Shown here one piece after another: positions 19,347-39,108 of a stretch of DNA of 64,000 nt. The translations under genes were made by a program, and so were the position numbers. Within the stretch, counting starts at the first letter, position 1, and each line of letters begins with the position of its first letter. The DNA is taken from NCBI RefSeq assembly GCF_900104725.1, contig NZ_LT629758.1, positions 7,040,001-7,104,000 on the forward strand, in the 5' to 3' direction. This DNA is from Actinoplanes derwentensis. Its GTDB lineage: Bacteria; Actinomycetota; Actinomycetes; Mycobacteriales; Micromonosporaceae. The notes beneath the pieces were generated by a model. The model was not told the origin of the DNA. It saw only the letters and a list, made by a program, of their open reading frames with translations, and did no database searches.

Positions 19347-20408
19347 ATGGATGTTCTGCTGACCGTCGTAGTGCCGGTCTACGCGGTCGAGGGCTACCTC
19401 TACCAGTGTCTCGAGTCGATCCGCTCCGGATTGACTCCGGAGGAGAACGCCCGGGTCGAGGTGATCGCCGTCGACGACGCCTCACCGGACTCCTGCGGCA
19501 CGATGCTCGACGACTACGCAGCCCGGCACGGTGACCTGCGGGTTCTGCACCTGGACGGCAACGTCGGACTGGGGCTGGCCCGCAACGCCGGGCTGGCCGA
19601 GGCCCGCGGCGCGTACGTCTGGTTCGTCGACAGCGACGACTGGCTGCCCCGCGGTTCGGTCCGGGCCGTGCTGGACCGGCTGCGCGAGACCGAACCCGAC
19701 GTGCTGCTCATCGACCACCTGCGCGTGCACGAGAGCGGCCGTCTGCAGTCCGACCCGAGTTCACCGCTGCTGGCCGGGCCGCCCGAACTGGGACACCTGA
19801 TCGGCCTGCAGCACACCGCCTGGAACCGGGTGCTGCGCCGGGACTTCCTGACCAAGCACGAGCTGCGGTTCCCGGCCGGCTGGTACGAGGACGTCCCGTT
19901 CAGCAACCCGGTCCTGATCGCCGCCGAGCGTCTCGACGTGCTGAACCGGGTCTGCTACCACTACCGGGTCGGCCGGTTCGGGGCGATCACCGCGACCCGC
20001 AGCGACCGGCACTTCGAGGCCTTCGAGCAGTGGGACCGCTTCTACGCCTGGCTTGACGGGCAGGACGCCGATCCCGCGCTGCGCGTACGCGTGTTCACCT
20101 TGATGATCAGCCATCTGCTGGTGGTCGCGGGCAACGAGAGCCGGGTGCATCCGCGACGCCGCCGCGCGTTCTTCCGGGAGATCGCCGCGCTCTACCGACG
20201 GCACCGCCCGGACGGCTATCTGCCGCCCACCGGCACCCCCGGTCTCAAGCACCGGCTGGTCGCGGCGAACAGCTACGCGATGTACGCGGCACTGCGCACC
20301 GGTTACCGGGTCGCGGGTATCCGGCGCCGGTCCACCCAACGGACACCTGCGGTTTCCCGGGACATCCCGTCACCGCCACAACGGGTCAAGACCACCTCCC
20401 TACGTTGA
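19347..20408 (+). CDS. family 2 glycosyltransferase
   Basis: A 353-residue GT-A fold enzyme: VVVPVYAVEGYLYQCLESI at the N-terminus, VIAVDDASPDSCG, GNVGLGLARNAGLAEARG, and the metal-binding WFVDSDDWLP (DxD). The C-terminal part (~220-353) is helical and basic, resembling teichoic-acid and capsule transferases. It is 4 bases upstream of the pseH-like gene and so probably in one operon with pseH and pseI. It is a candidate sugar transferase of the surface glycan made by the locus; whether it transfers pseudaminic acid itself is doubtful because known Pse transferases are not GT2. Confidence 0.85.
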   Translation: MDVLLTVVVPVYAVEGYLYQCLESIRSGLTPEENARVEVIAVDDASPDSCGTMLDDYAARHGDLRVLHLDGNVGLGLARNAGLAEARGAYVWFVDSDDWLPRGSVRAVLDRLRETEPDVLLIDHLRVHESGRLQSDPSSPLLAGPPELGHLIGLQHTAWNRVLRRDFLTKHELRFPAGWYEDVPFSNPVLIAAERLDVLNRVCYHYRVGRFGAITATRSDRHFEAFEQWDRFYAWLDGQDADPALRVRVFTLMISHLLVVAGNESRVHPRRRRAFFREIAALYRRHRPDGYLPPTGTPGLKHRLVAANSYAMYAALRTGYRVAGIRRRSTQRTPAVSRDIPSPPQRVKTTSLR

Positions 20409-20412
20409 CGGC

Positions 20413-20862
20413 GTGCTCCGACCCGCCCGTGACTCCGATCGTGACCTGGTCCTCCCCTGGCGCAACCATCCTTCGGTACGTGCCGTCAGCCTGACCACGC
20501 ACGAGATCCAACCCGCCGAGCACGCCGCTTGGTGGGCCAAGCGCAGCGACAACGTCCTGATCTACGAAGAGGACGGCGTCCCGGCCGGTGTGGTGATCTT
20601 CGATGGCACCACCTGGTCGTTCTACCTCGACCTCGAAGGGCTCGGCCCGCGCCTCCTGCCCGCCTGGATGCGACTGGAGAAGGCGGCCGTCGAGTACGCC
20701 TTCGGCACCCTCGGCCTCGACACCCTCGGCGGCGAGACACTCGCCGACAACAAGCAGGTCCTCGCACTGCACCGGCGATTCGGGTTCCGCGAGACACGCA
20801 GATACGAACGGCTGATCGACGGCGTGCCGAAGACGGTCGTCTGGACGGAGAGAAACAGATGA
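20413..20862 (+). CDS. pseH: PseH-type N-acetyltransferase (GNAT)
   Basis: A 149-residue GNAT enzyme starting at GTG. The N-terminal signature of PseH-like proteins is clear: RPARDSDRDLVLPWRNHPSV, followed by HAAWWAKR, the substrate strand SFYLDLEGLGPRLLPAWMRL and the C-terminal NKQVLALHRRFGFRETR. PseH acetylates the 4-amino group of UDP-4-amino-4,6-dideoxy-AltNAc, the third step of CMP-pseudaminic acid synthesis. The stop overlaps the pseI start in ATGA, giving translational coupling. The other early enzymes (PseB, PseC) are 12 kb away at 32957-35061. Confidence 0.82.
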   Translation: MLRPARDSDRDLVLPWRNHPSVRAVSLTTHEIQPAEHAAWWAKRSDNVLIYEEDGVPAGVVIFDGTTWSFYLDLEGLGPRLLPAWMRLEKAAVEYAFGTLGLDTLGGETLADNKQVLALHRRFGFRETRRYERLIDGVPKTVVWTERNR

Positions 20863-21875
20863 GCAGCAAGAAGCCGTACATCGTCGCGGAGATGTCGGGC
20901 AACCACAACGGTTCGCTCGACCGGGCGCTGGCCCTGGTGGACGCCGCGGCCGATGCCGGCGCCGACGCCATCAAGATCCAGACGTACACCGCGGACACCA
21001 TGACCGTGGACGTCAAGCACCCGCGGTTCCAGATCTCCGCCGGGCACGACCTGTGGGGCGGCGACTACCTCTACCAGCTCTTCGAGCGTGCGCACACCCC
21101 GTGGGACTGGCACGCGCCGATCTTCGAACGGGCCCGCGAGCGGGGCATCACCCCGTTCTCCAGCCCGTTCGACCGGACCGCGGTCGAGCTGCTGGAGAAG
21201 CTGGACGCGCCGATGTACAAGATCGCGTCCTCGGAGATCACCGACCTGCCGCTGGTCCGGCTCGCCGCCTCGACCGGCAAACCGATCATCATCTCCACCG
21301 GCATGGCCACGCTGCACGAGATCACCGCCGCGGTCGAGGCCGCCAAGGGGGTCGGGGCCACCGACATCACCGTGCTCAGCTGCACCGCGTCCTACCCGGC
21401 TCCGCCGGAACAGACCAACCTGCGGCGCATCCCGGTGCTCGCCGAGGCGCTGCGGCTGCCGATCGGCCTGAGCGACCACACGATGGGCATCGGAGTACCG
21501 ATCGCCGCGGTGGCGTACGGCGCGGTCCTGATCGAGAAGCACTTCACCCTGGACCGGGCCGACGGCGGCGTGGACTCGGCGTTCTCCCTCGACCAGGCCG
21601 AACTGAATCTGCTGGTCACCGAGTCGGAGCGGGCCTGGCAGGCGCTCGGCACCACGGCGATCGGGCCGACCGAGGCGGAGAAGGAGAGCCTGCGGTTCCG
21701 GCGGTCGCTCTACGTCGTGACCGATGTGAAAGCGGGCGACCCGGTGACCGAGGAGAACGTTCGTTCCATCCGGCCGACCGGCGGGCTCGAACCGGACGCG
21801 ATCGGCACCGTGCTGGGACGTACCTTCGCCGTCGACGCGGCCAAGGGCACGCCGCTGACCTGGGATCTGATCTAG
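20859..21875 (+). CDS. pseI: pseudaminic acid synthase PseI
   Basis: A 338-residue NeuB-family synthase. The barrel begins YIVAEMSGNHNGSLDRAL (Pse-type GNHN), with IKIQTYTADTMT, FSSPFDRTAVELLEKLDAP, KIASSEITDLPL, GLSDHTMG and VLIEKHFTLDR. The C-terminal SAF antifreeze-like domain starts near residue 280 (LRFRRSLYVVTDVKAGD). It condenses 2,4-diacetamido-2,4,6-trideoxy-altrose with phosphoenolpyruvate. The EKHFTLDRADGGVDSAFS segment fits PseI/LegI rather than sialic acid synthase; the paired PseH, PseB, PseC and PseG genes favour the Pse route. A bidirectional terminator follows directly. Confidence 0.9.
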   Translation: MSSKKPYIVAEMSGNHNGSLDRALALVDAAADAGADAIKIQTYTADTMTVDVKHPRFQISAGHDLWGGDYLYQLFERAHTPWDWHAPIFERARERGITPFSSPFDRTAVELLEKLDAPMYKIASSEITDLPLVRLAASTGKPIIISTGMATLHEITAAVEAAKGVGATDITVLSCTASYPAPPEQTNLRRIPVLAEALRLPIGLSDHTMGIGVPIAAVAYGAVLIEKHFTLDRADGGVDSAFSLDQAELNLLVTESERAWQALGTTAIGPTEAEKESLRFRRSLYVVTDVKAGDPVTEENVRSIRPTGGLEPDAIGTVLGRTFAVDAAKGTPLTWDLI

Positions 21876-25369: not shown

Positions 25370-25391
25370 GCGCTCATGCTGTCAGACGAGC

Positions 25392-26693
25392 TCACAGGGG
25401 CAGAGCCGCGGTGAGCCGGGTGCCCTCGCCCTCCCGGCTGTCCACCGCGAGCACTCCCCCGGCGGCCCGGACCCGGTCGTCCAGCCCGGCCAGGCCGTGC
25501 CCCTTGGCCAGACTCGCCCCGCCCACGCCGTCATCGGAGACCGTCACGATCAGCCCGGTGGCGATCCGCTGCACGCTGACCTGTACCTCGTTGGCGTGGC
25601 TGTGTTTGGCGACGTTGGTGAGCGCCTCGGCCACCACGAAGTAGGCGGTCGACTCGACACCCGGGTCCAGCCGCTCCAGCGGCGGCGCGTCCAGGTCCAC
25701 CGGGACGGTGCACCGGCCGGCCAGGGCGGTCAGCGCCGCCTGCAGCCCGCGGTCGACCAGGATCGGCGGGGCGATTCCGCGGGACAGGGCCCGCAGCTCG
25801 TCCAGGGTCTCCCGGGTCTGGGTGAGCGCCTCGGCCACGAGGGCCCGGGCGTGCTCCGGGTCGTCGGCGAACTTCTGCTCGGCCCGGCCCAGATCCATGG
25901 CCAGCCGGACCAGCCGCTGCTGCGGGCCGTCGTGGATGTCGCGCTCCAGCTTGCGCAGCGCCACCGCTTCGGCCGAGACGGCCGCCGCTTTCTGCTGGCG
26001 GGCCAGGTCACGAGCTTCTTCGGCGTCGGTGACCTGGCGCCGCAGCTCGTACGCGCCGATCAGCAGGCCCTGGGCGAACTTCGCCTCCAGCAGCGCCGAC
26101 CAGCGGACCACCCAGAACAGGGTGCCGGCGAAGAAGACGCCCATGGCAAGGTAGAACAGCGACCGGTTGAGGTAGGTCGACCCGAGTCCGAGCAGCCCGG
26201 GCAGATCCTGGTCGTTCGGTCCCTGCGGGATCGTCCAACCCCAGAGCCACCAGGTGAGGCCGCTGAGCGTGCCGGCCCACCAGGTGAGCACGAAACAGAA
26301 GCCCAGCACGTTCGGGACCAGGCGGAACACGCCGTGCAGCAGGTCGAGCCAATACTGCCCGTCGGTGAACGGGCCGACCAGCCGCCGGAACGCGCCCTTG
26401 CCGCGGCTGTTCCGGTAGATCGGTTGCGGGATCCGCCGGCCGAGCACCGGGCTGATCCGGGCGCGCTCGGCCATCGCGAAACCGCGGGACATCATCAGCG
26501 TCCCCGCCAGCAGGGGCAGACCGATCCAGATGACCGCGGTGCTGACGCCGACGGCGAACCCGGTGAGGCCGAGGACCAGCGTCACCAGGGCGATCGGGAA
26601 GCCGAGCAGCACGTACTGGGTGTCGATGCCCAGTTGCCGCAGCTTGCCGGCCGGGCTGCGGGTGGGCGCCGCGCCGGCGTGTGTGGTCGTCAT
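25392..26693 (-). CDS. sensor histidine kinase (HisKA_3)
   Basis: A 433-residue membrane kinase. About four or five TM helices span residues 25-195 in the arrangement of the actinobacterial Sensor domain (VLLGFPIALVTLVLGLTGF ... VLTWWAGTLSGLTWWLWGW ... FYLAMGVFFAGTLFWVV). A coiled segment leads to the dimerisation motif with phospho-His, ERDIHDGPQQRLVRLAMDLG (near residue 248), and the HATPase domain (ALTNVAKHSHANEV, VSDDGVGGA, GHGLAGLDDRVRAAGG). The partner is the NarL-type regulator downstream. There is only a short extracytoplasmic part, so the signal is probably membrane-related. Confidence 0.93.
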   Translation of the reverse strand: MTTTHAGAAPTRSPAGKLRQLGIDTQYVLLGFPIALVTLVLGLTGFAVGVSTAVIWIGLPLLAGTLMMSRGFAMAERARISPVLGRRIPQPIYRNSRGKGAFRRLVGPFTDGQYWLDLLHGVFRLVPNVLGFCFVLTWWAGTLSGLTWWLWGWTIPQGPNDQDLPGLLGLGSTYLNRSLFYLAMGVFFAGTLFWVVRWSALLEAKFAQGLLIGAYELRRQVTDAEEARDLARQQKAAAVSAEAVALRKLERDIHDGPQQRLVRLAMDLGRAEQKFADDPEHARALVAEALTQTRETLDELRALSRGIAPPILVDRGLQAALTALAGRCTVPVDLDAPPLERLDPGVESTAYFVVAEALTNVAKHSHANEVQVSVQRIATGLIVTVSDDGVGGASLAKGHGLAGLDDRVRAAGGVLAVDSREGEGTRLTAALPL

Positions 26694-28375: not shown

Positions 28376-29557
28376 CTATATGTGCAGCGTGGTAAGCCTG
28401 GTGAACTCGGCCGGAAGGTCGTATCCGTCCCAGATGGAGCCGAAGGTCAGGGCTGACCCGAAAGGCACGATCCGGTCCACACCGCGGCCACCCAGCTCGG
28501 TCGCGAAGGCCCGCAACTCGGCCGGAGTGAAGCCGAAATGGCTGACCGTCTGGTCCTGCCGGTTCATCGCCGGCACCAGATCGATCAGCGAGCCGGCCTC
28601 GGCGAACGGGAACGCGCCCGCCCCGATCCAGCGCCGCGGCACCGACCCGGGCCCGGCCAGGGTCACCGCGGTCAGCCGGTTGTCCGGGAAGTCCACGGCG
28701 GTGGCGGCACCGGTCGCGGCCAGCCCGTACGCGTTGACCCGCTTCTCCACGGCCATCGCCGCGTCCACCGTCCAGCCCCGCTGGTCCACCACCGTGAGCA
28801 GCAGGTCCAGGAACTCGGACCGGACCGCGGCGGCGTCCCCGGCACCGATCAGGAACACCGTCCGCGGTGAGGAGCAGGCGGCCTGGTCGAACCAGTACGC
28901 GTCGTTGGCGAAACCGGTCACGGCGGCTTTGCGCGCGGCCGGGTCGGCGGCCTGCCAGCCGGGCACGGACAGGACCGCCCAGGACGTACGGTCCGGGAAG
29001 GTCAGGTCCCGGGCGGACGGCCGCAGCGGCTGTTTGCGGATCGTGTCGACGGCCGTGTCGCCGCCCCAGATCACCCGCAGGTCACACCACCGGCTGAGGG
29101 CCGCGGTGACGGCGTCGTCGTAGCCGTACGTGACCATCTTCTGGGTCCGGCCGATGACCGGGTCGGCTTCGGTCTCGTTCAGCGCGTCCAGGATGACCTC
29201 GGCCGCGCCCGCCGACCGGGACGAGATCCGGACCACGTTGTGGTTGCCGGCCAGCGCGGACAGCGCCCACGAGTAGACGAAGATGGTGTCCACATTGGCC
29301 GGCGGCAGGTGGAAGACGTTCCCACGCGGGAAGACCAGCGCGTCGGTACGTTCCATCGCGGCGACCGCCCGGTGCAGCTCAGCCGGTCGCAGGAAGTAAC
29401 CGAGCGATCCCAGCTCCGGGAACCTCCGGGCCACCGCAGGCGCGAGCAGTTTCCGGGCCAGCTTGGCCAGGAAGTCGACGACCCGGGGGTCACCGACGGT
29501 GAGCCGATCCTCCGACGGCGCGGTGAGATCGCCCTCGACACCGAAACGAAACTGCAT
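28376..29557 (-). CDS. LuxC-like acyl-CoA/acyl-protein reductase
   Basis: A 393-residue member of the LuxC acyl reductase family in the aldehyde dehydrogenase superfamily. Visible are LVFPRGNVFHLPPANVDTIF, WALSALAGNHNVVRIS (cofactor region) and the catalytic Cys in WFDQAACSSPRTVFLIG (near residue 227). LuxC enzymes reduce acyl groups, passed from a LuxE-type partner, to aldehydes with NADPH. Its ATG shares bases with the stop of the LuxE-like gene (TGATG). It is the last gene of a five-gene coupled operon with ACP, ketoreductase and AMP-ligase. No lux alpha/beta luciferase is present, so light production is not implied. Confidence 0.85.
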   Translation of the reverse strand: MQFRFGVEGDLTAPSEDRLTVGDPRVVDFLAKLARKLLAPAVARRFPELGSLGYFLRPAELHRAVAAMERTDALVFPRGNVFHLPPANVDTIFVYSWALSALAGNHNVVRISSRSAGAAEVILDALNETEADPVIGRTQKMVTYGYDDAVTAALSRWCDLRVIWGGDTAVDTIRKQPLRPSARDLTFPDRTSWAVLSVPGWQAADPAARKAAVTGFANDAYWFDQAACSSPRTVFLIGAGDAAAVRSEFLDLLLTVVDQRGWTVDAAMAVEKRVNAYGLAATGAATAVDFPDNRLTAVTLAGPGSVPRRWIGAGAFPFAEAGSLIDLVPAMNRQDQTVSHFGFTPAELRAFATELGGRGVDRIVPFGSALTFGSIWDGYDLPAEFTRLTTLHI

Positions 29558-30588
29558 CAGGCTCCCTTGTACGTGTCCGAGCAGCCCCGTGCCTCGGCGC
29601 GGGGCAGGCGGCCGAGCACCGAGAAGCGCTTGCCGGGCCAGTCCCCGTCGTCGATGCCGTGCACCACACCGAGATCCTCGGTGAGCAGCACGTGGCCGGG
29701 ATAAGAGGTAGACAGGGTGCTCACGACTTCCAGGAGGCCCGGTTTTCCGGGCGGCAGCTCCGCCCAGGTCTCCGGGTCACGAACCACGACGTCCGCGAAA
29801 TCCGGGCAGTACAGCGAACCGCCGTCCGGGCCTTCAAGAAAGATCGTCCCGATCTGCTCGACCATGCCGTAATAGTTGTGGACCCGGGTGAGCCCGACCT
29901 TCTTCAAATGAGACCGGAACTCCTCCGGCGAGACGGCCTGGTCGATCAGCTTCTTCCAGCCGCCGGAGTGGATCAGGGTGCCGTTGCTCAGGTCCAGGCC
30001 GTGTTCCAGGGCGACCTCGTAGAGGTGCAACCAGACCAGGAAGGTGAACCCGAAGATCAGGAACGGCTGGTCACCGTGTTTCTCCAGGAAGCCGCGCAGT
30101 GCCGCCAGGTCGACCTGGCCGTTCATGTCGAGTGCCCACACGTGATCGCGCCCGAAGGTCGACATGCCGAGCACCCCGGCGCCGCGGGCACTGAACGAGC
30201 GGCGGTCCTTCAGCATCGCCTTGGTGTCGACCAGGATCATCGGCAAGCGTTTCGGGCCGAGCACGGTCTGCACCGTGGCGGCGAGCCGTTTCTGCTGCTC
30301 GGCGGCGGCCGCCTTGTCCAGGTAGATCTTGCTGACGTCACCGGTGGTGCCGCTGGACGTGAGGACTTTGAAGACCTCGTCGTCCGGGATGCTCTTGAGT
30401 TCGAGCGTCTTGAAGAGCCGGACGGGTAGCCACGGCAATTCGGGGATGCCGGAAGCGTCGGTGTAGCCGGAAGCGCTCAGGATCCGGTCGTACGGCTCGC
30501 AATGGGCCCGATGAAAAGCGGTCAGAGCCGTCAGTTCCTGGACGAGTCGTTCTTCCTTGACGGCTTGCGGCAGGGTGAAGACACTCAC
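29557..30588 (-). CDS. LuxE/PaaK-family acyl-protein synthetase
   Basis: A 343-residue adenylate-forming enzyme of the LuxE type. The P-loop-like segment KVLTSSGTTGDVSKIYLD is near residue 75, GWKKLIDQAVSPEEF and NYYGMVEQIGTIF near 215-240, and a short C-terminal domain follows. LuxE activates a fatty acid and passes it as a thioester to LuxC. The start is GTG at 30588, preceded by GGAGG (30596-30600) and overlapping the stop of the upstream ligase gene as GTGA. Its substrate is unknown; the neighbouring ACP and ketoreductase suggest a hydroxylated or ACP-bound acyl chain. Confidence 0.85.
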   Translation of the reverse strand: MSVFTLPQAVKEERLVQELTALTAFHRAHCEPYDRILSASGYTDASGIPELPWLPVRLFKTLELKSIPDDEVFKVLTSSGTTGDVSKIYLDKAAAAEQQKRLAATVQTVLGPKRLPMILVDTKAMLKDRRSFSARGAGVLGMSTFGRDHVWALDMNGQVDLAALRGFLEKHGDQPFLIFGFTFLVWLHLYEVALEHGLDLSNGTLIHSGGWKKLIDQAVSPEEFRSHLKKVGLTRVHNYYGMVEQIGTIFLEGPDGGSLYCPDFADVVVRDPETWAELPPGKPGLLEVVSTLSTSYPGHVLLTEDLGVVHGIDDGDWPGKRFSVLGRLPRAEARGCSDTYKGA

Positions 30589-31799
30589 AGCGACGCCTCC
30601 AGGGCGCGGTAGTCGGTCTTGCCGTTCGGCAGCAGCGGCAGGGCCTCGATCGTGCGCACGTCGACACCGGTGAAGTGGGTGCCCAGCCATTCGGCGATCT
30701 TCGTGCGCAGTGCCCGGGTGTCGGTGTCCAGGGTGAAGACGTGCAGCTTGTCGTCACCGGCCACGGCCACCACCGGGAACTCGCGCTCCACGTCGTCGAG
30801 GTTGATCCGGACGCCGAAGACCTTGCCGATCCGCTTGATCCGGCCGGTGAGGAAAAGGAAGCCGTCGTCGTCGAGCCGGCCCAGGTCACCGGTGCGCAGC
30901 ACGCCGCCCTGGTCGTCGCCACGAGCCAGGTCAGCGGCGGTCTCGGCGTACCCCATCATGACGTTGGGCCCGCGATAGACGACCTCGTCGTCCTCGATCG
31001 CGAACGTCGCGCCGGGCATCGCCAGACCGACCGAGCCGGACTTCGCCGTCAACGAGGACGAAGGCAGGCAGGCCATCCGGGGGCCGGCCTCGGTCTGGCC
31101 ATACATCACGAACATCCGGCCGTCCACAGTGCTCATCCGGGCCGCGAAGTCGTCGATCAGTTCGGCGCGTAACCGGCCACCGGCCTGGGTGAGGGTCCGC
31201 AACGACGGATACTTCGCCGGGTCGAAACGCAGTCGGCGCAGCATCTCGTACTGCGACGGGACGAACGCCATCGACGTGACCGCGTGCTCGTTCACCGCGG
31301 TCCAGAAGTCCTTCTGCATGATCCCGGTTCGTTCCAGGATCACGGTCGCACCCCGGAGAAGATGCGAATGCAGGACCGAGAGGCCGTACGAGTAGAAGAG
31401 CGGCAGCGTGGTGATCGCGACGTCGTCGCCGGTGATCCCGAGGCTCTCGGCCACCTGCTCCGCGTTGGCGAGCACCGCCGCCCGGGACAGCCGGACGAGT
31501 TTCGGGTCCCCGGTCGATCCACTGGTGGTGAGCAGCAGCGCCAGATCCGGGTGCACGTCATCGGTGGTGAACCGGGCCCGCAACGAGGTCTGGTCCAGCT
31601 CCGGGTCGAGCAGCAGCACCGGTTTCCCGGCGCGCAACGCGGCCAGATAGGTGGCGATCGCCGGCACGGTCGTGGTCATCGCGAGGAACACCGGTGACTT
31701 CTCCGGGAGTTCCCGCTCCGCCGCGTCGATCAGCTCTCGCGTCAGGATCTCGCCGGTGGCCGCGTCGACGACCCTCGCGGCCGGGTGCAGCAGGTTCAC
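30585..31799 (-). CDS. AMP-dependent acyl/amino acid ligase (adenylation enzyme)
   Basis: A 404-residue ANL superfamily enzyme, shorter than usual because the N-terminal part is reduced. Core motifs are ALLLTTSGSTGDPKLVRLSR (P-loop), YGQTEAGPRM (A5), RTGDLGRLDDDGFLFLTGR (A7-A8) and the C-terminal catalytic Lys in LLPNGKTDYRAL. It most likely loads an acid onto the small ACP encoded two genes upstream, or onto CoA. The start is GTG, overlapping the ketoreductase stop as GTGA. It is unusual to find it beside a LuxE-type enzyme, which is itself an adenylating enzyme; two activation steps are therefore encoded in one operon. Confidence 0.87.
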   Translation of the reverse strand: MNLLHPAARVVDAATGEILTRELIDAAERELPEKSPVFLAMTTTVPAIATYLAALRAGKPVLLLDPELDQTSLRARFTTDDVHPDLALLLTTSGSTGDPKLVRLSRAAVLANAEQVAESLGITGDDVAITTLPLFYSYGLSVLHSHLLRGATVILERTGIMQKDFWTAVNEHAVTSMAFVPSQYEMLRRLRFDPAKYPSLRTLTQAGGRLRAELIDDFAARMSTVDGRMFVMYGQTEAGPRMACLPSSSLTAKSGSVGLAMPGATFAIEDDEVVYRGPNVMMGYAETAADLARGDDQGGVLRTGDLGRLDDDGFLFLTGRIKRIGKVFGVRINLDDVEREFPVVAVAGDDKLHVFTLDTDTRALRTKIAEWLGTHFTGVDVRTIEALPLLPNGKTDYRALEASL

Positions 31800-32527
31800 A
31801 GTTTCAGTCCCCCGTCGACCCCGATCACCTGGCCGGTGACGAATCGGGCCTGGTCGGAGAGGAGGAAGGCGATCACGTCGGCGACGTCCTCGGCGGTGCC
31901 GAGCCGGCCCAGAGCGGTGTCCACGATCCGGGCGGCACGGCCGGACTCGTCGAGCGTGTCCAGCATGTCGGTGGCGATGAAACCGGGGGCGACCGCGTTG
32001 ACCCGGATGCCCTTCGGGCCGAGTTCCTTGGCCGCCGACTTGGTGAGCCCGATGACCGCGGCCTTCGAGGCGGCGTAGACCGCCTGACCGGCGACACCGT
32101 GGGTGCCGGTGATCGAGGCGGTCAGCACGACGGCCGGGTTCTGGCCGCGGGCGAGCAGGCGGACCGCGTTCTGCAGGGTGTACGCGGCACCCGCCGCGTT
32201 CACCGCGAACAGCCGCTCGACCGTCGCGTCCGGTGTCATACCGAGCATCCCGGCCGCGTGCGTGCCGGCGTTGACCACCAGCGCGTCCAGCCGTTTGAAC
32301 GTGTCGAAGGCCAGTCGGACCAGGGCCTTGCTGGTGGCCGGGTCGGCGATGTCACCGGCCGCGTGCACGACGGTGCCGCCGAACTTGCCGGACAGCGCGG
32401 CCGCGGTCTCCGCGACGGCGTCCGGGCCGTGGCCGTGCAGAACCAGATCGAAGCCCTGCTCGGCGAGGCGGTGCGCGGTGGCCCGGCCGATGCCGCGCGA
32501 CGCACCCGTCACGAGGGCGACACTCAC
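31796..32527 (-). CDS. FabG-like short-chain dehydrogenase/reductase
   Basis: A 243-residue classical SDR. The cofactor motif VTGASRGIGRATAHRLAEQG is at the N-terminus, followed by ALVVNAGTHAAG, the catalytic Ser in VLTASITGTHG, YAASKAAVIGL (Tyr-x-x-x-Lys) and PGFIATDML. The closest general function is 3-oxoacyl-ACP reductase. Direct coupling to the ACP gene (GTGA overlap) supports a beta-keto reduction on that carrier. Confidence 0.9.
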   Translation of the reverse strand: MSVALVTGASRGIGRATAHRLAEQGFDLVLHGHGPDAVAETAAALSGKFGGTVVHAAGDIADPATSKALVRLAFDTFKRLDALVVNAGTHAAGMLGMTPDATVERLFAVNAAGAAYTLQNAVRLLARGQNPAVVLTASITGTHGVAGQAVYAASKAAVIGLTKSAAKELGPKGIRVNAVAPGFIATDMLDTLDESGRAARIVDTALGRLGTAEDVADVIAFLLSDQARFVTGQVIGVDGGLKL

Positions 32528-32766
32528 TTGACGTCCACCCCGTATTTACCGAGGATTCGCACGGCCTCTTCAAAACTGGACAAACCGATGACATCGTCGG
32601 TGTCAATCATTACCGAGAATTCATCTTCAATCGTCGCGACGAGTGACATGTGCGCGAGCGAATCCCACTTCTCGTTGTCCTGGTAGCGCAGATCGTCCAC
32701 GGGGGCGTCCACCGGAAGATCGAGGGCGGTACGGAACGCCGCACGTAGTCTCTGCAGCTCAGTCAC
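32524..32766 (-). CDS. acyl carrier protein
   Basis: An 80-residue carrier protein starting at GTG 32766 after CTGGAG. The phosphopantetheine Ser is in KWDSLAHMSLVATIEDEF (near residue 38), with the typical acidic helix and the VIGLSSFEEAVRIL third helix. It is the first gene of the five-gene operon and is divergent from pseB. Its dedicated position argues against it being the housekeeping fatty-acid ACP. Confidence 0.9.
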   Translation of the reverse strand: MTELQRLRAAFRTALDLPVDAPVDDLRYQDNEKWDSLAHMSLVATIEDEFSVMIDTDDVIGLSSFEEAVRILGKYGVDVK

Positions 32767-32956
32767 GGTGTTACTCCAGGGTGGGGGTGATCGGAGGAGT
32801 CCTACCTTCCCGCAGCTTCCCGGTCGTCCCGACCAATCCCGGCTGAACTGGAAATGAACTGCATTTGGCATTCTTCCGCGCCCCTGGAATTAGCGAATCC
32901 GCTGGTTATGCTTCCGGCTCGTAGCCAGCCTCTCGCTGATCCCGACGGAGAAAACC
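32767..32956. promoter_or_regulatory. divergent promoter region between the ACP operon and pseB
   Basis: These 190 bp must drive both the acyl operon (-) and the pseB-pseG operon (+). TTGGCA at 32865-32870 is a possible -35 element for pseB, but no convincing -10 follows at the right spacing. An 18-base match to the E. coli lac promoter core lies at 32906-32923, likely chance. The pseB ribosome binding site is GGAG at 32947-32950. Confidence 0.5.
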
Positions 32957-33937
32957 TTGTCTGAAATCGCCGGCTCCTCGATCCTTGTCACCGGCTCCAC
33001 CGGTTCCTTCGGCAAGGCATTCCTGAGGTACGCGCTGACCCACCTCGACCCGGCCCGCATCGTCGTGTTCTCCCGCGACGAACTGAAGCAGTACGAGGTC
33101 CGCCAGATGTTCGGCGACGACCCCCGCCTGCGCTTCTTCATCGGCGACATCCGGGACGAGAAGCGTCTCGCCCGGGCCATGCACGGCATCGACCACGTGG
33201 TGCACGCCGCAGCCCTGAAGCAGGTCGACACCGCCGAGTACAACCCGTCGGAGTTCGTCGCGACGAACATCAACGGCACCCAGAACGTGATCGACGCGGC
33301 CATCAACGCCGGTGTCAAGAAGGTCGTCGCGCTCTCCACCGACAAGGCGTCCAGCCCGATCAACCTGTACGGCGCGACCAAACTCGCCGCCGACAAGATC
33401 GTGATCGCCGGCAACCACTACGCCGCCACCCACCCGACCCGGCTCGCCGTGGTCCGCTACGGCAACGTGATGGGCAGCCGCGGCTCGGTGGTCCCGTTCT
33501 TCCGCAAGCTCGCCGAAGAGGGCAAGAGCCTGCCGATCACCGACAAGCGGATGACCCGGTTCTGGATCACCCTGGACGCGGCGGTCAAGTTCGTCGTCGA
33601 CTCGTTCGACGTGATGCAGGGTGGCGAGCTGTACGTCCCGCGCATCCCCAGCATGCGGATCATGGACCTGGTCGAGGCCGTCGCGCCCGGCGCCACCACC
33701 CACGAGATGGGCATGCGTCCCGGCGAGAAGCTGCACGAGGAGATGATCGCCTCCGACGACAGCCGCCGCACGCTGCGCTTCAAGGACCGTTACGTGGTCC
33801 AGCCGGTGGTGGCCAGCTGGGGTTACGAGTCGCCGGAGGGTGGCGAGGCGGTCGCCGACGGCTTCAACTACCGCTCGGACAACAACGACCTGTGGCTCTC
33901 GGTCGACGAGATGCGCGAACTGCTCGCGGAGTCCTGA
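32957..33937 (+). CDS. pseB: UDP-GlcNAc 4,6-dehydratase (inverting) PseB
   Basis: A 326-residue SDR-superfamily dehydratase of the PseB/FlaA1 type, starting at TTG after GGAG. It has VTGSTGSFGKAFLRY (NAD-binding), FSRDELKQYEVRQMF, FIGDIRDEKRL, HAAALKQVDTAEYNP and the catalytic region STDKASSPINLYGATKLAAD (TDK instead of the SYK triad start, as expected for the inverting group), ending with GEKLHEEMI. It catalyses the first committed step to CMP-pseudaminic acid. TGATG couples it to pseC. Confidence 0.93.
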   Translation: MSEIAGSSILVTGSTGSFGKAFLRYALTHLDPARIVVFSRDELKQYEVRQMFGDDPRLRFFIGDIRDEKRLARAMHGIDHVVHAAALKQVDTAEYNPSEFVATNINGTQNVIDAAINAGVKKVVALSTDKASSPINLYGATKLAADKIVIAGNHYAATHPTRLAVVRYGNVMGSRGSVVPFFRKLAEEGKSLPITDKRMTRFWITLDAAVKFVVDSFDVMQGGELYVPRIPSMRIMDLVEAVAPGATTHEMGMRPGEKLHEEMIASDDSRRTLRFKDRYVVQPVVASWGYESPEGGEAVADGFNYRSDNNDLWLSVDEMRELLAES

Positions 33938-35061
33938 TGCTGCCGTACGGACGACAGTCCATCGACGACTCCGACGTGGCGGCGGTCGTCGAGGCCCTGG
34001 GCAGTGACTGGCTGACCACCGGGCCGCGGGTCGCCGAGTTCGAGGCCCTGTTGGCGGACGTCGCGGGCGCACCCTGCGTGACGGTTACCAACGGGACGAC
34101 GGCGTTGCACGCGGCCTACGCCGCAACGGGCGTGACCAGTGGAGACGAGGTCGTCACCACGCCGATGACGTTCGTGGCCACCGCCTCGGGCGCGGCCATG
34201 CTCGGGGCGAAGGTGGTGTTCGCGGACGTCGAACAGGACTCCGCGAACATCGACCCGGCGGCCGTGGAAGCGGCGGTCACATCACGCACCAAGGTCATCG
34301 CGGCGGTGGACTACGCGGGTGTGCCCGCCGACTACGACCGGCTCCGCAAGATCGCTGACAGCGCCGGGTCCTACCTGCTGGGCGACGCCGCCCACTCGAT
34401 CGGATCGTCGTACCGGGGCCGGCCGGTGGGCACGCTCGCCGACCTGACCACGTTCTCGTTCTTCCCGACCAAGAACTTCACCACCGCCGAGGGCGGAGCG
34501 ATCGCCTCGACCCGGCCCGAGCTGGTCACCCGGCTGCGGGAGTTCCGGACCGTCGGGCTGGTCCGGGACCGGGCGAAGATGCGGTACCCGGACGAGGGCG
34601 CCTGGCATCAGGAAGTGCACGAGTTCGGCCTGAACTACCGGCTGCCCGACGTGCTCTGTGCCCTGGGCAGCTCCCAGTTGCGGCGGCTCGGCGCGTTCAA
34701 GGCGCGGCGGCAGCAACTCGTCGCCCGCTACGACGCACTGCTCGACGACGTGCCCGGCCTGCGCCTGCCGGTGCACGGCGAGGGTGTCGACGCGATGCGG
34801 CACCTCTATCCGGTGCGGATCCTCGACGGCCGCCGCCGTGAGGTGTTCGAGCGGATGCGCGCCGACGGGATCCTGGTCCAGGTCAACTACGTCCCGGTGT
34901 ACTGGCACCCGGTCTTCGAGGACCTCGGCTACCGGCGGGGCCTGTGCCCGAACGCCGAGGCGTTCTATGCCGAGCAGCTGTCCCTGCCACTCTTCGCCGA
35001 CCTCACCGACAGTGACCAGGACCGTGTGGTCGAGGCTCTGCGCGGCATCCTCAGGAGCTGA
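33937..35061 (+). CDS. pseC: UDP-4-keto-sugar aminotransferase PseC
   Basis: A 374-residue DegT/DnrJ/EryC1-family PLP enzyme. Its start LPYGRQSIDDSDVAAVVEAL with WLTTGPRVAEFE is characteristic of PseC. Other features are VTVTNGTTALHAAY, DYAGVPADYDRL, LLGDAAHSIGSSYRG and the PLP Lys in FSFFPTKNFTTAEGG (near residue 186). It transfers an amino group to UDP-4-keto-L-AltNAc made by PseB. An earlier in-frame extension is contradicted by the TGATG junction with pseB. Confidence 0.93.
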   Translation: MLPYGRQSIDDSDVAAVVEALGSDWLTTGPRVAEFEALLADVAGAPCVTVTNGTTALHAAYAATGVTSGDEVVTTPMTFVATASGAAMLGAKVVFADVEQDSANIDPAAVEAAVTSRTKVIAAVDYAGVPADYDRLRKIADSAGSYLLGDAAHSIGSSYRGRPVGTLADLTTFSFFPTKNFTTAEGGAIASTRPELVTRLREFRTVGLVRDRAKMRYPDEGAWHQEVHEFGLNYRLPDVLCALGSSQLRRLGAFKARRQQLVARYDALLDDVPGLRLPVHGEGVDAMRHLYPVRILDGRRREVFERMRADGILVQVNYVPVYWHPVFEDLGYRRGLCPNAEAFYAEQLSLPLFADLTDSDQDRVVEALRGILRS

Positions 35062-35064
35062 CGG

Positions 35065-35874
35065 GTGCACCACGGCAACCACTTCTACGGACACGCCCAC
35101 GTCCTCGCCGAATACTGCGGACTGGACCCGGCCGACCCGCCCCGGGTCGACGGGTACCTGCAGCACGGCTGGAACGTGGTGGACGGGTTGGGCGCGGGCA
35201 CCCCGTACGCGCCCGGCCGTCCGATCTTCGTGTGGTCCGAACGCACCCGCCGCCGGGCCTGGTCGATGAACCGCCCACTGGCCACAGTGACCGGTGCCCC
35301 GTTCCTCTACCTGCTGCGTTCCGCGGCCGGCGCCGGAACGAACGAGCCTCGGGAGGGGACCATCTGGTACCCGTTCCACGGGTGGGAGGGGCAGAAGGTC
35401 AGCGGGGATCATCATCGGCTGATCGACGAGATCACCGCCACCGAGAGCGGGCCGATCACGTTCTGTCTCTACTGGAACGAATTCGAGGACGGCCGGATCC
35501 GGGCCCTGTACGAGCGGTCCGGACGGGTCATCTGCCACGGGTACCGGGGTTACATGCGGCAGCGCACCGACGCCCGGTTCCTGCACCGTCAGCTCGCCGA
35601 ACTGCGCCGGCACCGCCGGGTGGCGTCGAATCGGCTGAGCACCGCGATCCTCTACGGCACCGCCGCCGGTTGTGAGCCCGCGGTGTACGGCGACCCGATG
35701 TACCTGGACCGCGAGGACACCACCACACCCGACCGGATCCGCCGCGAGTGGCCGGAACTGCACGGTGCCGCCCCCGACCCGGCGCTGGCCCGTGAGACGG
35801 TACTGGCCGAGTTGGGTGACGGCCATCTGGCGTCCCCGGCCGAGCTGCGCGCGATCCTGGGCTGGCCGGCGTGA
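35065..35874 (+). CDS. HGW-motif putative glycosyltransferase, copy 2
   Basis: A 269-residue paralog of the protein at 23604-24431, starting at GTG with AGGAG at 35053-35057. Shared landmarks are MHHGNHFYGHAHVLAEYC, RVDGYLQHGWNVVDGL, IFVWSERTRRRAWS, TIWYPFHGWEGQKVSGDHHR, FCLYWNEFED, VICHGYRGY, LRRHRRVASNRLSTAILYG and AVYGDPMYLD. It sits between pseC and a Rossmann-like gene in the Pse operon, overlapping the latter as GTGA. Transfer of an activated nonulosonic acid is the most economical guess; the family is not one I can name. Confidence 0.72.
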   Translation: MHHGNHFYGHAHVLAEYCGLDPADPPRVDGYLQHGWNVVDGLGAGTPYAPGRPIFVWSERTRRRAWSMNRPLATVTGAPFLYLLRSAAGAGTNEPREGTIWYPFHGWEGQKVSGDHHRLIDEITATESGPITFCLYWNEFEDGRIRALYERSGRVICHGYRGYMRQRTDARFLHRQLAELRRHRRVASNRLSTAILYGTAAGCEPAVYGDPMYLDREDTTTPDRIRREWPELHGAAPDPALARETVLAELGDGHLASPAELRAILGWPA

Positions 35875-37382
35875 TCACCATGATCGGCGGCGAGATGCCG
35901 GAGTACGCCGAGGAGCATCCGCCCGCCTCCGGCCCGCTCTACCGGCACCTGGCCGACCGGCTGCCCACCGGCATCCGGGTTCTGGTCGCCGGGCCGCACG
36001 ACGCCGGGCTGGTCCGGGCACTGGCCGACCGGCGCGAGGTGACCTGTCTGCTCCGGTCCCGGCCGGACGCCGAGGCACTGGCCGATACCGACGTCACGGT
36101 GCTCTGCGGCACCCTGTCCAAACTGACCGACGCGGACCGGTACGACACGGTGATCGCCTTCGACGGTGTCGGCCGCCTCTGCTCGCCGGAGGACACCCCG
36201 CTCGACTGGGCCGAATCGGTCCGGGTCCTCAAGCGGTCACTGCGGCCCGGTGGCACTCTGCTGCTCACGGTCGAGAACGAGCTGGGCGTACACCGCCTGG
36301 TCGATCCGGGAACACCGGCCGCCGACCGGGCCGCCGACGCCTGGAACGCGGCCGCCGAGTTCGGGACCGCACCGGGCCGGGCCGATCGGGTGGCCGCGGT
36401 GCTCGGAGCCGAGGGCCTGCCGGTCTCCGGGATGGCCGCCCTCTGGCCACTGCCCGAGAGCCCGGCACTGCTGGTCGACTCCGAGACGCTGCGGTACGGG
36501 CCGCTGGACGCGCTCGCCGCCCTGGCCGCGAACGTGACCGCGGCGGCGTACCGGCAAGGGTCTGTCCTCAGTGATCCCCGGCGGCTCGCCGCCGCGTCGG
36601 TGCGTCGCGGGATCGGCGCCGAGCTGGCCCCCGCCTGGCTGGCCGTCGCCCAGCGAGCCGCCCGTCCGGGTCAGGGACTCCAGCTGCCGCCGGTGCTGTT
36701 CGCCAGCAGTTCGGTAGCCGGCGGATCAGGAACCGGCGGCTCGGGGACGGTCACCGAGATCGTCGGCACGCCGGAGGGCTGGCTGCGCCGGACGGCGAAC
36801 GGGGCCGCCGAACCGCTGCCGGCCGGGCACCTGCTGGAGGAGAGGCTGCTCGGGGCGGCGCTCGGCCACGATCTGCCGGAGTTGCGGCGGCTGCTCACCG
36901 GTTGGATGACCGAGCTGCCGATGGCGACCGCCGGGAACGTCCTCGTCGACGGCGAACGGTTCACGGTCCTGGACCCGAACGAGCCGGACCGTTCGGACGT
37001 GTTGGCTCGATTCGCCCACACGCTGATCGACGGCGGATATCACCACCCGTGGCCGGGTATCACCGACGTGGTCCGGCTGATCGCGGTCCTGGCCGGAGCC
37101 GCTGGACACCCCACCCCTTCCGACATCTCCGAAATGCCGGAGGGGTTCGAGCCGCTGGGCCGCCGCGAACAGCAGAACCAGATCGCCGCACTGCGGCGAC
37201 AACTCGCCGACGCCGAGGAACGCGCCCGGTTCTTCGAAGTCGAACTGGAGAAACGCGAGGCCGAACTGGGCCGCGCCAAGACACAGATCGCCGCGTTCAG
37301 CGGCAACCTCGGCTTCCGCGCCGCCAAAGCCGGGCTCGTCCTGGCCCGCGCGGCCCGCAATCGCATCCGAAAAGGACGATGA
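35871..37382 (+). CDS. degenerate Rossmann/methyltransferase-like protein, copy 2
   Basis: A 503-residue paralog of the protein at 21907-23607. The Rossmann-like half shows RVLVAGPHDAGLVRALADRR, LLRSRPDAEALADTDVTVL, YDTVIAFDGVGRLCSPED and RSLRPGGTLLLTVENELGVH; the shared SVLSDPRRLAAASVRRG segment is near residue 230. Unlike copy 1, it ends in a clear coiled coil (about residues 420-470, RREQQNQIAALRRQLADAEE) followed by a basic tail. SAM-binding Gly residues are not canonical. It overlaps both neighbours by 4 bases in the pse operon. Confidence 0.75.
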   Translation: MITMIGGEMPEYAEEHPPASGPLYRHLADRLPTGIRVLVAGPHDAGLVRALADRREVTCLLRSRPDAEALADTDVTVLCGTLSKLTDADRYDTVIAFDGVGRLCSPEDTPLDWAESVRVLKRSLRPGGTLLLTVENELGVHRLVDPGTPAADRAADAWNAAAEFGTAPGRADRVAAVLGAEGLPVSGMAALWPLPESPALLVDSETLRYGPLDALAALAANVTAAAYRQGSVLSDPRRLAAASVRRGIGAELAPAWLAVAQRAARPGQGLQLPPVLFASSSVAGGSGTGGSGTVTEIVGTPEGWLRRTANGAAEPLPAGHLLEERLLGAALGHDLPELRRLLTGWMTELPMATAGNVLVDGERFTVLDPNEPDRSDVLARFAHTLIDGGYHHPWPGITDVVRLIAVLAGAAGHPTPSDISEMPEGFEPLGRREQQNQIAALRRQLADAEERARFFEVELEKREAELGRAKTQIAAFSGNLGFRAAKAGLVLARAARNRIRKGR

Positions 37383-38107
37383 TGACCACCCTCGGGATCA
37401 TTCAGGCCCGGATGGGCTCCACCCGGCTGCCCGGCAAGGTGCTGCGCGAACTCGGCGGCCGGACCGTTCTCGACCGGGTGGCCAGGGCCGCCCGGGAGAG
37501 CGGCGTCCTCGACGACCTCGTGGTGGCCACCACGATCGAACCGGACGACGACGCGGTCGCCGCCGAATGCGCGCGGATCGGGATCGACTGCTACCGCGGG
37601 CCGGTCGACGACGTGCTGACCCGGTTCCTCGGGGTGCTGGAGACCCGGTCGGCCGAGCACGTCATGCGGTTCACCGCGGACTGCCCGCTGCTCGACCCGC
37701 GGCTGGTCGCCCGCGCCTACCGGGTGTTCGCGGCGGCCGGGGCCGACTACCTGACCACGTCGATCACCCGGACCCTGCCGCGCGGGCTGGACGTCGAGGT
37801 GGTCCGGGGAGCGGTGCTCAAAGAGATCGACAAGATGGCGTACGACCACCACCGCACGCATGTGACCTCGTACATCTACTCGCACCCGGCTGATTTCGAC
37901 GTGGTCGGGATGACCGTGCTGCCGGATCTGTCGTACCTGCGGCTCACCCTGGACACCGAGGACGACTGGCGGCTCATCGAGACGATCGTCGACCACTTCG
38001 GGGACGCGCCGGTGGCCGTCCGGGAACTCGCCGGCTGGCTCGCCGACCGCCCCGAACTCGCCAGCTTGAACGCGCACATCGCCCAGAAGGAACTCGAGCA
38101 AGCGTGA
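37379..38107 (+). CDS. pseF: PseF/SpsF-type cytidylyltransferase
   Basis: A 242-residue nucleotidyltransferase with IIQARMGSTRLPGKVLREL at the start, then VVATTIEPDDDAVAAEC, RFTADCPLLDPRLVARAY (metal Asp) and LRLTLDTEDDWRLIETI. This is the SpsF-like group of CMP-sugar synthases, often beside PseG (SpsG) homologues. It probably activates pseudaminic acid to CMP-Pse. It is coupled to both neighbours (ATGA and GTGA overlaps). ATG 37379 and ATG 37382 are both possible starts. Confidence 0.82.
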   Translation: MMTTLGIIQARMGSTRLPGKVLRELGGRTVLDRVARAARESGVLDDLVVATTIEPDDDAVAAECARIGIDCYRGPVDDVLTRFLGVLETRSAEHVMRFTADCPLLDPRLVARAYRVFAAAGADYLTTSITRTLPRGLDVEVVRGAVLKEIDKMAYDHHRTHVTSYIYSHPADFDVVGMTVLPDLSYLRLTLDTEDDWRLIETIVDHFGDAPVAVRELAGWLADRPELASLNAHIAQKELEQA

Positions 38108-39108
38108 TCGTCGGGATCAGGTGTGACGCGGGGCCGAAGACCGGGGTCGGGCATCTGGTGCGGTGCGTGGCCCTGGCTGAGGAACTCGTCAGCCGTGGGG
38201 TGGACGTGCACTTCCTCAGCGACCTCGGCGGCGTGACCTGGGCCGAGGCGCAACTGCGGCAGCGCGGGCTGCCGTGGCATCCGGCCCCCTACGACGAGGT
38301 CGGGCTGGTCGCGGCGGCCGAACGGCTGGGACTGGACGCGCTGGTGGTGGACTCGTACACGCTGCCGCCGTCGCACGCCAAGGCGGTTCGGGCCACCGGG
38401 CGGACCGTGCTGGCCATCGTGGACGGTGACACCCGTGGGCAGGACGCGGACGTCTACGTCGATCAGAACCTGGACACCACGCTCGACGCGGACGGAACGC
38501 TGCTGACCGGAATCGATTACGCGCTGCTGCGTTCGGCGGTGCGACGGCTGCGTCCGGCCACTGCTCCGGTGCACCTGTCCGGGCGTACGCCCAAGGTGGT
38601 CGCCTTTTTCGGTGGAACCGACGCCTATCGGGCCGCGCCGCAGGTCGCGCGACTGCTCGCGGGCACCGCGGCGCCTTTCGACGCGACCGTGATCGCCGCC
38701 GACCCGAGCCTGCGCGCCGAACTCCTCACGATCCCGGCCGGCGAGAGCCAGCGATTCGCGATCATCGACCCGACCGACCGGCTGCCGGAGTTGCTCGTCG
38801 AGGCCGACCTGGTGGTCAGCGCCAGCGGCACGTCGACCTGGGAACTGCTCTGCCTCGGTCGGGCGGCGGCCCTGGTCTGGGTGATCGACAATCAGATTCT
38901 CGGGTACGAGAAAGCAGTCGCCCGTGGTTACGCCGCCGGGATCGGCAGGCTCGGTGAGTTCGGCCCGGACGCCGTCACGACACTGCGCCGGCTGCTGCTG
39001 AATCCGGCCGACCGCACCGCGCTCGCCGTCCGGGGCTGGGCCGCTGTCGACGGCCGCGGGGTCGAACGAGTGGCAGACGTCCTGGTCAGGGAGTCGTCAC
39101 CTCGATGA
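38104..39108 (+). CDS. pseG: UDP-2,4-diacetamido-2,4,6-trideoxy-altropyranose hydrolase PseG
   Basis: A 334-residue GT-B-fold hydrolase. The start GIRCDAGPKTGVGHLVRCVA contains the PseG GxGHxxR signature; VVDSYTLPPSHAKAVR, VYVDQNLDTT, VVAFFGGTDAYRAAPQVARL and VVSASGTSTWELLCLGRAAA follow. It removes UDP from UDP-6-deoxy-AltdiNAc before PseI acts. It is the last gene of the pse operon and overlaps the convergent oxidoreductase gene by 23 bases. Confidence 0.9.
   Translation: MIVGIRCDAGPKTGVGHLVRCVALAEELVSRGVDVHFLSDLGGVTWAEAQLRQRGLPWHPAPYDEVGLVAAAERLGLDALVVDSYTLPPSHAKAVRATGRTVLAIVDGDTRGQDADVYVDQNLDTTLDADGTLLTGIDYALLRSAVRRLRPATAPVHLSGRTPKVVAFFGGTDAYRAAPQVARLLAGTAAPFDATVIAADPSLRAELLTIPAGESQRFAIIDPTDRLPELLVEADLVVSASGTSTWELLCLGRAAALVWVIDNQILGYEKAVARGYAAGIGRLGEFGPDAVTTLRRLLLNPADRTALAVRGWAAVDGRGVERVADVLVRESSPR

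Follow-up and report, generated by a model that had tools for sequence, protein, structure and literature searches.

Gene sets that combine an acyl carrier protein (ACP) with Lux-type enzymes have been described in the glycosylation islands of several proteobacteria. In Aeromonas piscicola AH-3, five such genes are located downstream of pseH in the Group II polar flagellin island (PMC7874193). Here, we analyzed a cassette that agrees with these in gene families and gene order (ACP, short-chain dehydrogenase/reductase (SDR) of the ketoreductase (KR) type, ANL ligase, LuxE, LuxC), which is located beside pseudaminic acid (Pse) biosynthesis genes in Actinoplanes derwentensis. The DNA studied, called the window throughout, comprises 64,000 nucleotides (NZ_LT629758.1, positions 7,040,001-7,104,000) of a 10.65 Mb genome assembled as one contig. 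We consider it probable that the cassette supplies acyl-ACP to PseH, which has been named the N-acetyltransferase of the pathway (PMC4363471).

The likeness to the Aeromonas Group II island concerns gene families beside pse genes and not sequence identity. In Aeromonas, the glycosyltransferase gene fgi-1 follows luxC in all but one strain, whereas in the window an M1 peptidase gene comes next. Moreover, the Aeromonas island serves flagellin (PMC7874193), whereas the one listed flagellin place of the window's genome (of 2 matches) lies 1.2 Mb off. The published mass of the Pse derivative of A. piscicola AH-3 is 376.14 Da, with 376 Da reported on the lateral flagellin as well, and the glycan has a second moiety of 102 Da that is unidentified there. 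The Group I and III islands, which belong to strains whose glycan is a single monosaccharide, are described as small. For the glycan, a 'liposugar' component has been suggested (PMC7874193). Enterobacterial flagellin islands carry Acp, FabG, CaiC, LuxE, and LuxC within aminosugar islands, but DegT-type aminotransferases are common there and PseC occurs in 2 strains only (PMC4875605). The island of Dickeya zeae EC2 has the same family set and adds tktA/tktB, vioA, and maa (PMC7575072). The 7-N-glyceroyl Pse of Tannerella likewise carries a hydroxy-acyl group on N7, but its acid is a C3 compound (PMC9912281). The perosamine of Vibrio cholerae O1 carries tetronate as its N-acyl group; a requirement for wbeL has been predicted, and RfbN of this pathway carries a LuxE domain (PMC3441752, PMC4772473).

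An earlier sequence-only reading of this DNA had pointed to Lux-like and fatty acid-like genes in some proteobacterial flagellin islands and had considered an acyl-type modification of the nonulosonic acid plausible. The first point is borne out and the second supported by the literature (PMC7874193, PMC4875605). Its remark that the set could not be named did not hold, since the same families and order are published beside pseH in Aeromonas islands (PMC7874193). While the gene set as such is already known from proteobacteria, the cassette at the pse locus of the Actinoplanes group, the exchange of modules together with PseH, and the tetronate-type reading are new as far as our searches go. A joint search of the open-licence literature for Actinoplanes and pseudaminic acid returned a review only.

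Exchange of ACP modules together with PseH

All six pse genes are present in the window (Table 1). PseB and PseI scored above their NCBIfam cut-offs, PseC, PseG, PseH, and PseF below. For PseI, the NeuB model remained below its own cut-off, and PseH matched the PDB entry of PseH (4xpk) with an E-value of 7.8e-4. The window's genome has a single match to PF04443, the LuxE family, and, at an E-value of 1e-100 or lower, one match to PseB.

In a sample of 300 genomes of the window's family, a strong relative of LuxE was found in 97 (99 at a loose threshold, two of those with weak matches only), after removal of three places where LuxE matched weakly (27-30% identity; one each in G020 and G291 and the second one in G222). 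Among these 97 cassette genomes, 80 also contain pseB. In the genus group of the window, pseB was present in 54 of the 56 cassette genomes, in all 54 within 5 kb, while it was found in 1 of the 11 genomes of the genus that lack LuxE. Outside this genus, 26 of the 41 cassette genomes carry pseB: within 5 kb in 11, at 16-28 kb in 12, and far away or on another contig in 3. The 12 intermediate cases comprise five genomes of genus g7 and seven of genus g4, presumably Micromonospora. In g7, LuxE-LuxC are separated from ACP-KR-ligase; in G006, for which both stretches were examined, both parts lie within one pse locus, and G047 displays the pseB end of the same split arrangement. In g4, for which six of the seven genomes with distant pseB were examined, the cassette forms a separate cluster with DegT, LhgO, and glycosyltransferase genes.

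A further 57 genomes of the family contain pseB without a strong LuxE match. We examined 20 of them, which we had chosen ourselves with their content unseen beforehand. All 20 carry at the pse locus a different module (ACP2-ligase2-SDR2, module 2; the cassette is module 1) together with a different PseH; in G260, which belongs to the window's genus, module 2 sits in the neighbouring stretch and not in the first one. Module 2 is divergent from its PseH, and its proteins matched the Pfam families PP-binding, AMP-binding, and SDR. For this PseH, the GNAT match was slightly below the Pfam cut-offs, and the best NCBIfam model was PseH, also below cut-off. Module 2 was found in none of the 20 stretches examined for the cassette, and no locus examined had strong matches to both modules. 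In g4, each of the two modules is placed between pseI and pseB. A gene for a large membrane-like protein (as judged by eye) without Pfam match stands beside module 2 in g4 (L138:10566-12449 and relatives) and does not occur in the module-1 stretches displayed.

When we compared the six pse enzymes, PseH alone followed the module. In the PseH tree, the two module types (21 and 20 rows) separated with 1 change, with a support of 97 in the Shimodaira-Hasegawa-like approximate likelihood ratio test (SH-aLRT), whereas the same split required 5 changes for PseB, 6 for PseC, 4 for PseI, 4 for PseF, and 5 for PseG. The approximately unbiased (AU) test rejected the module split for PseB (1.0e-5), PseC (2.5e-48), PseI (1.8e-76), PseF (2.6e-121), and PseG (3.5e-7); for PseH, it was the groupings by genus g4 (3.6e-5) and by genus g39 (1.5e-4) that were rejected. 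These trees are quick searches with some long-branched PseH rows; their rows are a non-random selection of loci that match pse genes or PseH, and the main tree omits locus L149, the genome of which was entered as G260. Pairwise identities gave the same picture. Between module-1 and module-2 genomes of g4, PseB is 91%, PseC 83%, and PseI 83% identical, but PseH only 44%. Similarly, the window and G260 (same genus, module 2) share 86% for PseB and 85% for PseI but 51% for PseH, while G260 and a g4 genome with module 2 share 75%, 69%, and 70%, respectively. In addition, the pseH gene adjoins the ACP gene in Dactylosporangium and Actinomadura loci. Since PseH alone tracks the module, the best explanation is that the module makes the acyl donor of PseH.

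The five enzymes and the distribution of the cassette

The five-gene operon facing pseB, as described in the sequence-only reading, was confirmed: all five open reading frames are open, each family match exceeds its Pfam cut-off in profile searches, and TIGR03589 identifies pseB. The overlapping junctions were also confirmed, with 4-nucleotide GTGA overlaps at ACP/KR, KR/ligase, and ligase/LuxE and a 1-nucleotide overlap within TGATG at LuxE/LuxC. From these overlaps alone, we infer that the five proteins may be made in fixed proportion. The ACP gene starts with GTG at 32766, with GGAG immediately 5' of the start, and when the intergenic stretch upstream (32767..32956) was scanned for promoters and terminators, nothing was detected, including no sigma-70-like promoter.

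Among 99 loci having ligase, LuxE, and LuxC, the order ACP-KR-ligase-LuxE-LuxC is exact in 84; the remaining 15 deviate in that a KR-, ligase-, or LuxC-like match is added, no KR was found, or the KR stands ahead of the ACP. A start codon overlapping the upstream stop codon is available at the four junctions (in gene order) in 30/30, 29/29, 29/30, and 27/30 loci of the Actinoplanes group and in 43/65, 52/62, 68/72, and 64/71 of the other loci. Because gene order and overlaps are kept across loci, the arrangement is more than chance. The ligase comprises 404 and 405 amino acids in the two Actinoplanes proteins measured and 457-477 in three relatives outside the group; in an alignment with the L116 ligase, the Actinoplanes enzyme has its gaps in the N-terminal part and in loops.

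Ser36 of the ACP is kept in 100/100 aligned rows (the window counted, here as in the following), Ser138/Tyr151/Lys155 of the SDR in 97/97, Lys394 of the ligase in 99/99, Cys336 of LuxE in 100/100, and Cys228 of LuxC in 100/100. These are the established catalytic residues of their families, and the five enzymes are likely functional. The SDR belongs to the FabG-like group. Both LuxE and LuxC of the window are homologous to the subunits of the lux fatty acid reductase (LuxC-LuxE complex, PDB 7xc6), with Cys336 aligned to the C-terminal cysteine of LuxE and Cys228 to a cysteine of LuxC in that structure. They differ from it in scoring far below the NCBIfam equivalog cut-offs (64 of 550 bits for LuxE, 43 of 750 bits for LuxC). 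Neither luciferase (luxAB) nor a LuxD thioesterase was found among the 20 neighbours scanned, a scan that did not extend to the remaining open reading frames of the window or to the rest of the genome.

The supposed link between the cassette and pse genes held within the family but mostly not elsewhere. From 207 genome_contigs loci found, 80 were kept; with 50% identity as the minimum, pseB or pseI was present in 36 (30 Actinoplanes-group, one Actinomadura, five Bacilli) and absent from the examined flank of 44. With the cassette mostly away from pse genes outside the family, it seems to serve several sugars, pseudaminic acid among them. In the phylum as a whole, the cassette is rare: a sample of 396 genomes contained strong LuxE in 3, with pseB as well solely in the window's genome, which is too few cassette genomes for statistics. 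Among the best 120 of 2065 matches of a LuxC protein search, which was not used further, the named relatives were mostly Actinoplanes and its kin.

Flagellin was considered as a general partner of the cassette and rejected. In the family sample, flagellin was detected in 72/97 cassette genomes and in 21/203 others, an association; Fisher values for these counts treat the genomes as independent, which they are not. All 67 genomes of the window's genus contain flagellin whether or not they have the cassette, and 25/97 cassette genomes of the family had no flagellin match. PF01973, presumably the Maf-type family, was not found in the window's genome, and no bacterium among the control genomes matched it either. 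What the cassette genomes have in common is more likely a surface glycopolymer than flagellin.

Away from pse genes, the cassette is commonly accompanied by other acyltransferases. A match within 1.2 kb was present in 50 of the 59 cassette loci without pseB/pseI. Among 103 loci with ligase, LuxE, and LuxC, an acyltransferase was found within 1.2 kb in 61, further off in 11, and not at all in 31. Of these 31, 25 are Actinoplanes-group loci, in which the examined sequence beyond luxC, about 9 kb long, may stop short of pseH (7.5 kb past luxC in the window), and two further ones (L127, L158) also have pse genes. The acyltransferases are of the GNAT type or of left-handed beta-helix types, the latter LpxA-like or of a further hexapeptide type that is Maa-like by eye; one is PglD-like with a PglD N-terminal domain. 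When loci were compared by acyltransferase type (15 vs 32 loci), the mean identity to the window was 63.5 vs 47.0% for the ACP and 63.8 vs 48.7% for the SDR, but ligase, LuxE, and LuxC differed by only 3.3, 1.1, and 2.0 points. Thus, ACP and SDR track the acyltransferase type and ligase, LuxE, and LuxC hardly do, which fits a common upstream acid reduction followed by tailored delivery.

Some loci show additional genes. In Ponticoccus, luxE is directly followed by a PseH-like GNAT gene on a plasmid (L156:10050-10607). Lysinibacillus and a Rhizobium plasmid have genes for the N- and C-terminal halves of a transketolase within the cassette or next to it (L114:6790-8599; L157:3359-5183). A relative of L-2-hydroxyglutarate oxidase is encoded near the cassette in 23/99 loci, none with pse genes (L063, L076, L088, L115, L117, and others); that of L076 scores above the NCBIfam cut-off. 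This may be a hint at 2-hydroxy diacids, or chance.

Proposed route to the acyl group and competing explanations

According to the description of the TIGR03585 model, PseH acylates the 4-amino group of a UDP-sugar. In the route that we propose, LuxE would activate one carboxyl of a C4 dicarboxylic acid, for example malate, LuxC would reduce the activated carboxyl to the semialdehyde, and the SDR would reduce the semialdehyde to the alcohol. The ligase would activate the other carboxyl and load the acid onto the cassette ACP, from which PseH would transfer the acyl group to the 4-amino group of the UDP-sugar, corresponding to N7 of pseudaminic acid. This would yield 7-N-dihydroxybutyryl pseudaminic acid, with the chemistry of the tetronate side chain in V. 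cholerae O1. That there are two acid-activating enzymes is in keeping with a C4 diacid, in which one carboxyl would be reduced and the other amidated, and two activations plus two reductions of malate would lead to a C4 dihydroxy acid. The kept catalytic residues, the conserved order, and the exchange of PseH with the module form the basis in sequence; what we infer is the use of the ACP-bound acyl group by PseH, the succession of reactions, the C4 diacid as substrate, and the product formed. That the cassette feeds PseH is the more secure part; for the complete proposal, a short hydroxy-acyl-ACP supply yielding this sugar, we lean towards acceptance, and the dihydroxybutyryl group taken by itself is plausible at a little under even odds. 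The sequence-only reading had regarded the aldehyde as a product; an intermediate in the formation of a hydroxy acid is the better interpretation.

The tetronate genes resemble this arrangement: an ACP, a ligase, a LuxE-domain reductase, and an acyltransferase acting on a 4-aminosugar, with two acid activations. The role of malate and those of the rfbKLMNO/wbe genes reportedly go back to a proposal of Morona in 1995. In the window, we found a dedicated ACP, a ligase, and a LuxE/LuxC reductase with kept residues, but the sugar differs from perosamine and the acyltransferase is another one. Mass calculation pointed in the same direction: Pse5Ac7Ac has 316.127 Da, and exchanging one acetyl for C4H6O3 gives 376.148 Da. 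The agreement of the Aeromonas value (376.14 Da) with this composition supports the C4 reading, while 3-hydroxybutyryl, glyceryl, and malyl miss it by 14-16 Da. C4H6O3 (102.03) also equals the 102-Da moiety. No statement of a C4 reading for the 376-Da sugar was met in the available Aeromonas passages, and a search of the open-licence literature that combined pseudaminic acid with dihydroxybutanoyl, one wording only, found no paper.

Various points weigh against this proposal. The window SDR is FabG-like, and an iron alcohol dehydrogenase is said to act at this point of the tetronate scheme. LuxE and LuxC are missing from module 2, which consists of ACP, ligase, and SDR; the SDR of module 1 may therefore have a keto acyl group bound to the ACP as a further substrate. 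In the window, pseH is 7.5 kb away from luxC, separated by a response regulator, a kinase, the peptidase, and an X/MT gene pair, and PseH remains below the TIGR03585 cut-off of 93.1 bits (window 63, module 2 74.9). The mass was determined in another phylum and is given with two decimals only, and the likeness to Aeromonas is one of gene families and not of sequences. C7H2O, the sole further increment free of nitrogen, and five nitrogen-containing increments also fall within 0.02 Da of 376.14, and dihydroxybutyryl and O-methylglyceryl share one formula. Aeromonas hydrophila AH-1 has a 403-Da derivative that the scheme leaves unexplained (PMC4691044), and Aeromonas caviae Sch3 makes plain Pse5Ac7Ac (PMC9290775); the passages available state the cassette content of neither strain. 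The acyltransferase queries were picked after inspection of the loci, and since ACP and SDR genes are neighbours, joint recombination could also explain their shared divergence. Finally, the transketolase pair and the L-2-hydroxyglutarate oxidase of some relatives are superfluous to the scheme.

Among the alternatives, the acyl group might go elsewhere, through an O-acyltransferase or to another sugar of the glycan, with PseH being exchanged for a different reason such as a different sugar acceptor. The 102-Da moiety of Aeromonas, equal in mass to C4H6O3, and the position of the cassette beside other sugar genes outside the family are in line with this option, but PseH is the only one of the six pse enzymes to follow the module and its gene adjoins that of the ACP in Dactylosporangium and Actinomadura, which makes the option unlikely. 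Less likely still is the route of the sequence-only reading, in which ligase and SDR build a beta-hydroxyacyl-ACP (e.g., 3-hydroxybutyryl) and LuxE-LuxC make an aldehyde that is the end product or is transferred. The FabG-like SDR and the composition of module 2 (ACP, ligase, and SDR without LuxE/LuxC) speak for it. However, 3-hydroxybutyryl would mean 360.15 Da, PseH-type enzymes make amides according to the family description, and no aldehyde-using enzyme was recognised among the pse-locus genes scanned, a search that was not full (a zinc-type dehydrogenase is encoded at 39086-40099). The studies of Aeromonas and enterobacteria suggest that the set channels a fatty acid into a fatty aldehyde or a lipid attached to the glycan (PMC7874193, PMC4875605, PMC7575072). 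We regard this as very unlikely: the families are indeed those of the lux fatty acid reductase, but the Aeromonas Pse derivative has room for an acyl group of about C4 only, the LuxE and LuxC scores fall far short of the equivalogs, and the partner exchanged with the module is a sugar N-acyltransferase. The least probable explanation, in which a transketolase lengthens the LuxC aldehyde and a longer polyhydroxy acid is then loaded, is in keeping with the Lysinibacillus and Rhizobium pairs and with the published Dickeya zeae island (PMC7575072), but transketolase matches occur in 1/99 loci, that one outside the Actinoplanes group.

On the basis of the PseH-feeding proposal, we put forward, as a tentative generalization, that N7-acylation in actinomycetes is modular, with swappable ACP modules each having its own PseH that uses acyl-ACP and not acetyl-CoA. 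Module 1 would be of the tetronate type and would explain the 376-Da derivative of Aeromonas and perhaps the 102-Da moiety. If this is true, swappable ACP modules would account for some of the variety among pseudaminic acids, the N-acyl group would become predictable from the genome with a testable structure for the 376-Da flagellin sugar, and the Lux-like genes of many glycosylation islands would obtain a role different from lipid attachment.

Features of the pse locus

The coordinates of the cassette and of the genes surrounding it are summarized in Table 1.

Table 1. Cassette and pse-locus features in the window (positions refer to the window)
Feature	Position	Strand	Evidence
GT2 glycosyltransferase, opposite end of locus	19347..20408	+	PF00535
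pseH-type GNAT N-acyltransferase, proposed cassette partner	20413..20862	+	TIGR03585 63 bits, below cut-off 93.1; tree
pseI, pseudaminic acid synthase	20859..21875	+	TIGR03586 465.2 bits, cut-off 340.25
LuxC-type acyl-protein thioester reductase	28376..29557	-	393 aa, PF05893
LuxE-type acyl-protein synthetase	29557..30588	-	343 aa, PF04443
ANL ligase, proposed acyl-ACP ligase	30585..31799	-	404 aa, PF00501
SDR/KR reductase	31796..32527	-	243 aa, PF13561/PF00106
Acyl carrier protein (ACP)	32524..32766	-	80 aa, GTG start, Ser36 attachment site, PF00550
Intergenic region between cassette and divergent pseB	32767..32956	.	190 bases
pseB	32957..33937	+	TIGR03589 486.6 bits, cut-off 407.75
pseC-like aminotransferase	33937..35061	+	TIGR03588 402.3 bits, slightly below cut-off 423.5
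X35, GT-B-like, without Pfam match	35065..35874	+	model pLDDT (predicted local distance difference test) 85.5; weak GT-B-type matches, TM about 0.4
MT, methyltransferase-like by eye, without Pfam match	35871..37382	+	
pseF-like cytidylyltransferase	37379..38107	+	PF02348 (longer frame); TIGR03584 31.4 bits, below cut-off 205.7
pseG-like	38104..39108	+	TIGR03590 129.8 bits, cut-off 153.55
Zinc-type dehydrogenase	39086-40099		

X35 is perhaps a glycosyltransferase for this sugar, judging from the structural model, the fold matches of which are weak and assign no family. The X/MT pair is present in two copies that flank the cassette (21907-24431 on the minus strand and 35065-37382 on the plus strand), none of the genes having a Pfam match; X23 and X35 are 60% identical and MT2 and MT 30%. 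X-type genes occur in pse loci of either module type. Genes for a response regulator and a Sensor/HisKA_3 histidine kinase are located at 24725-26693 and thus within the pse locus, with pseI on one side and luxC on the other.

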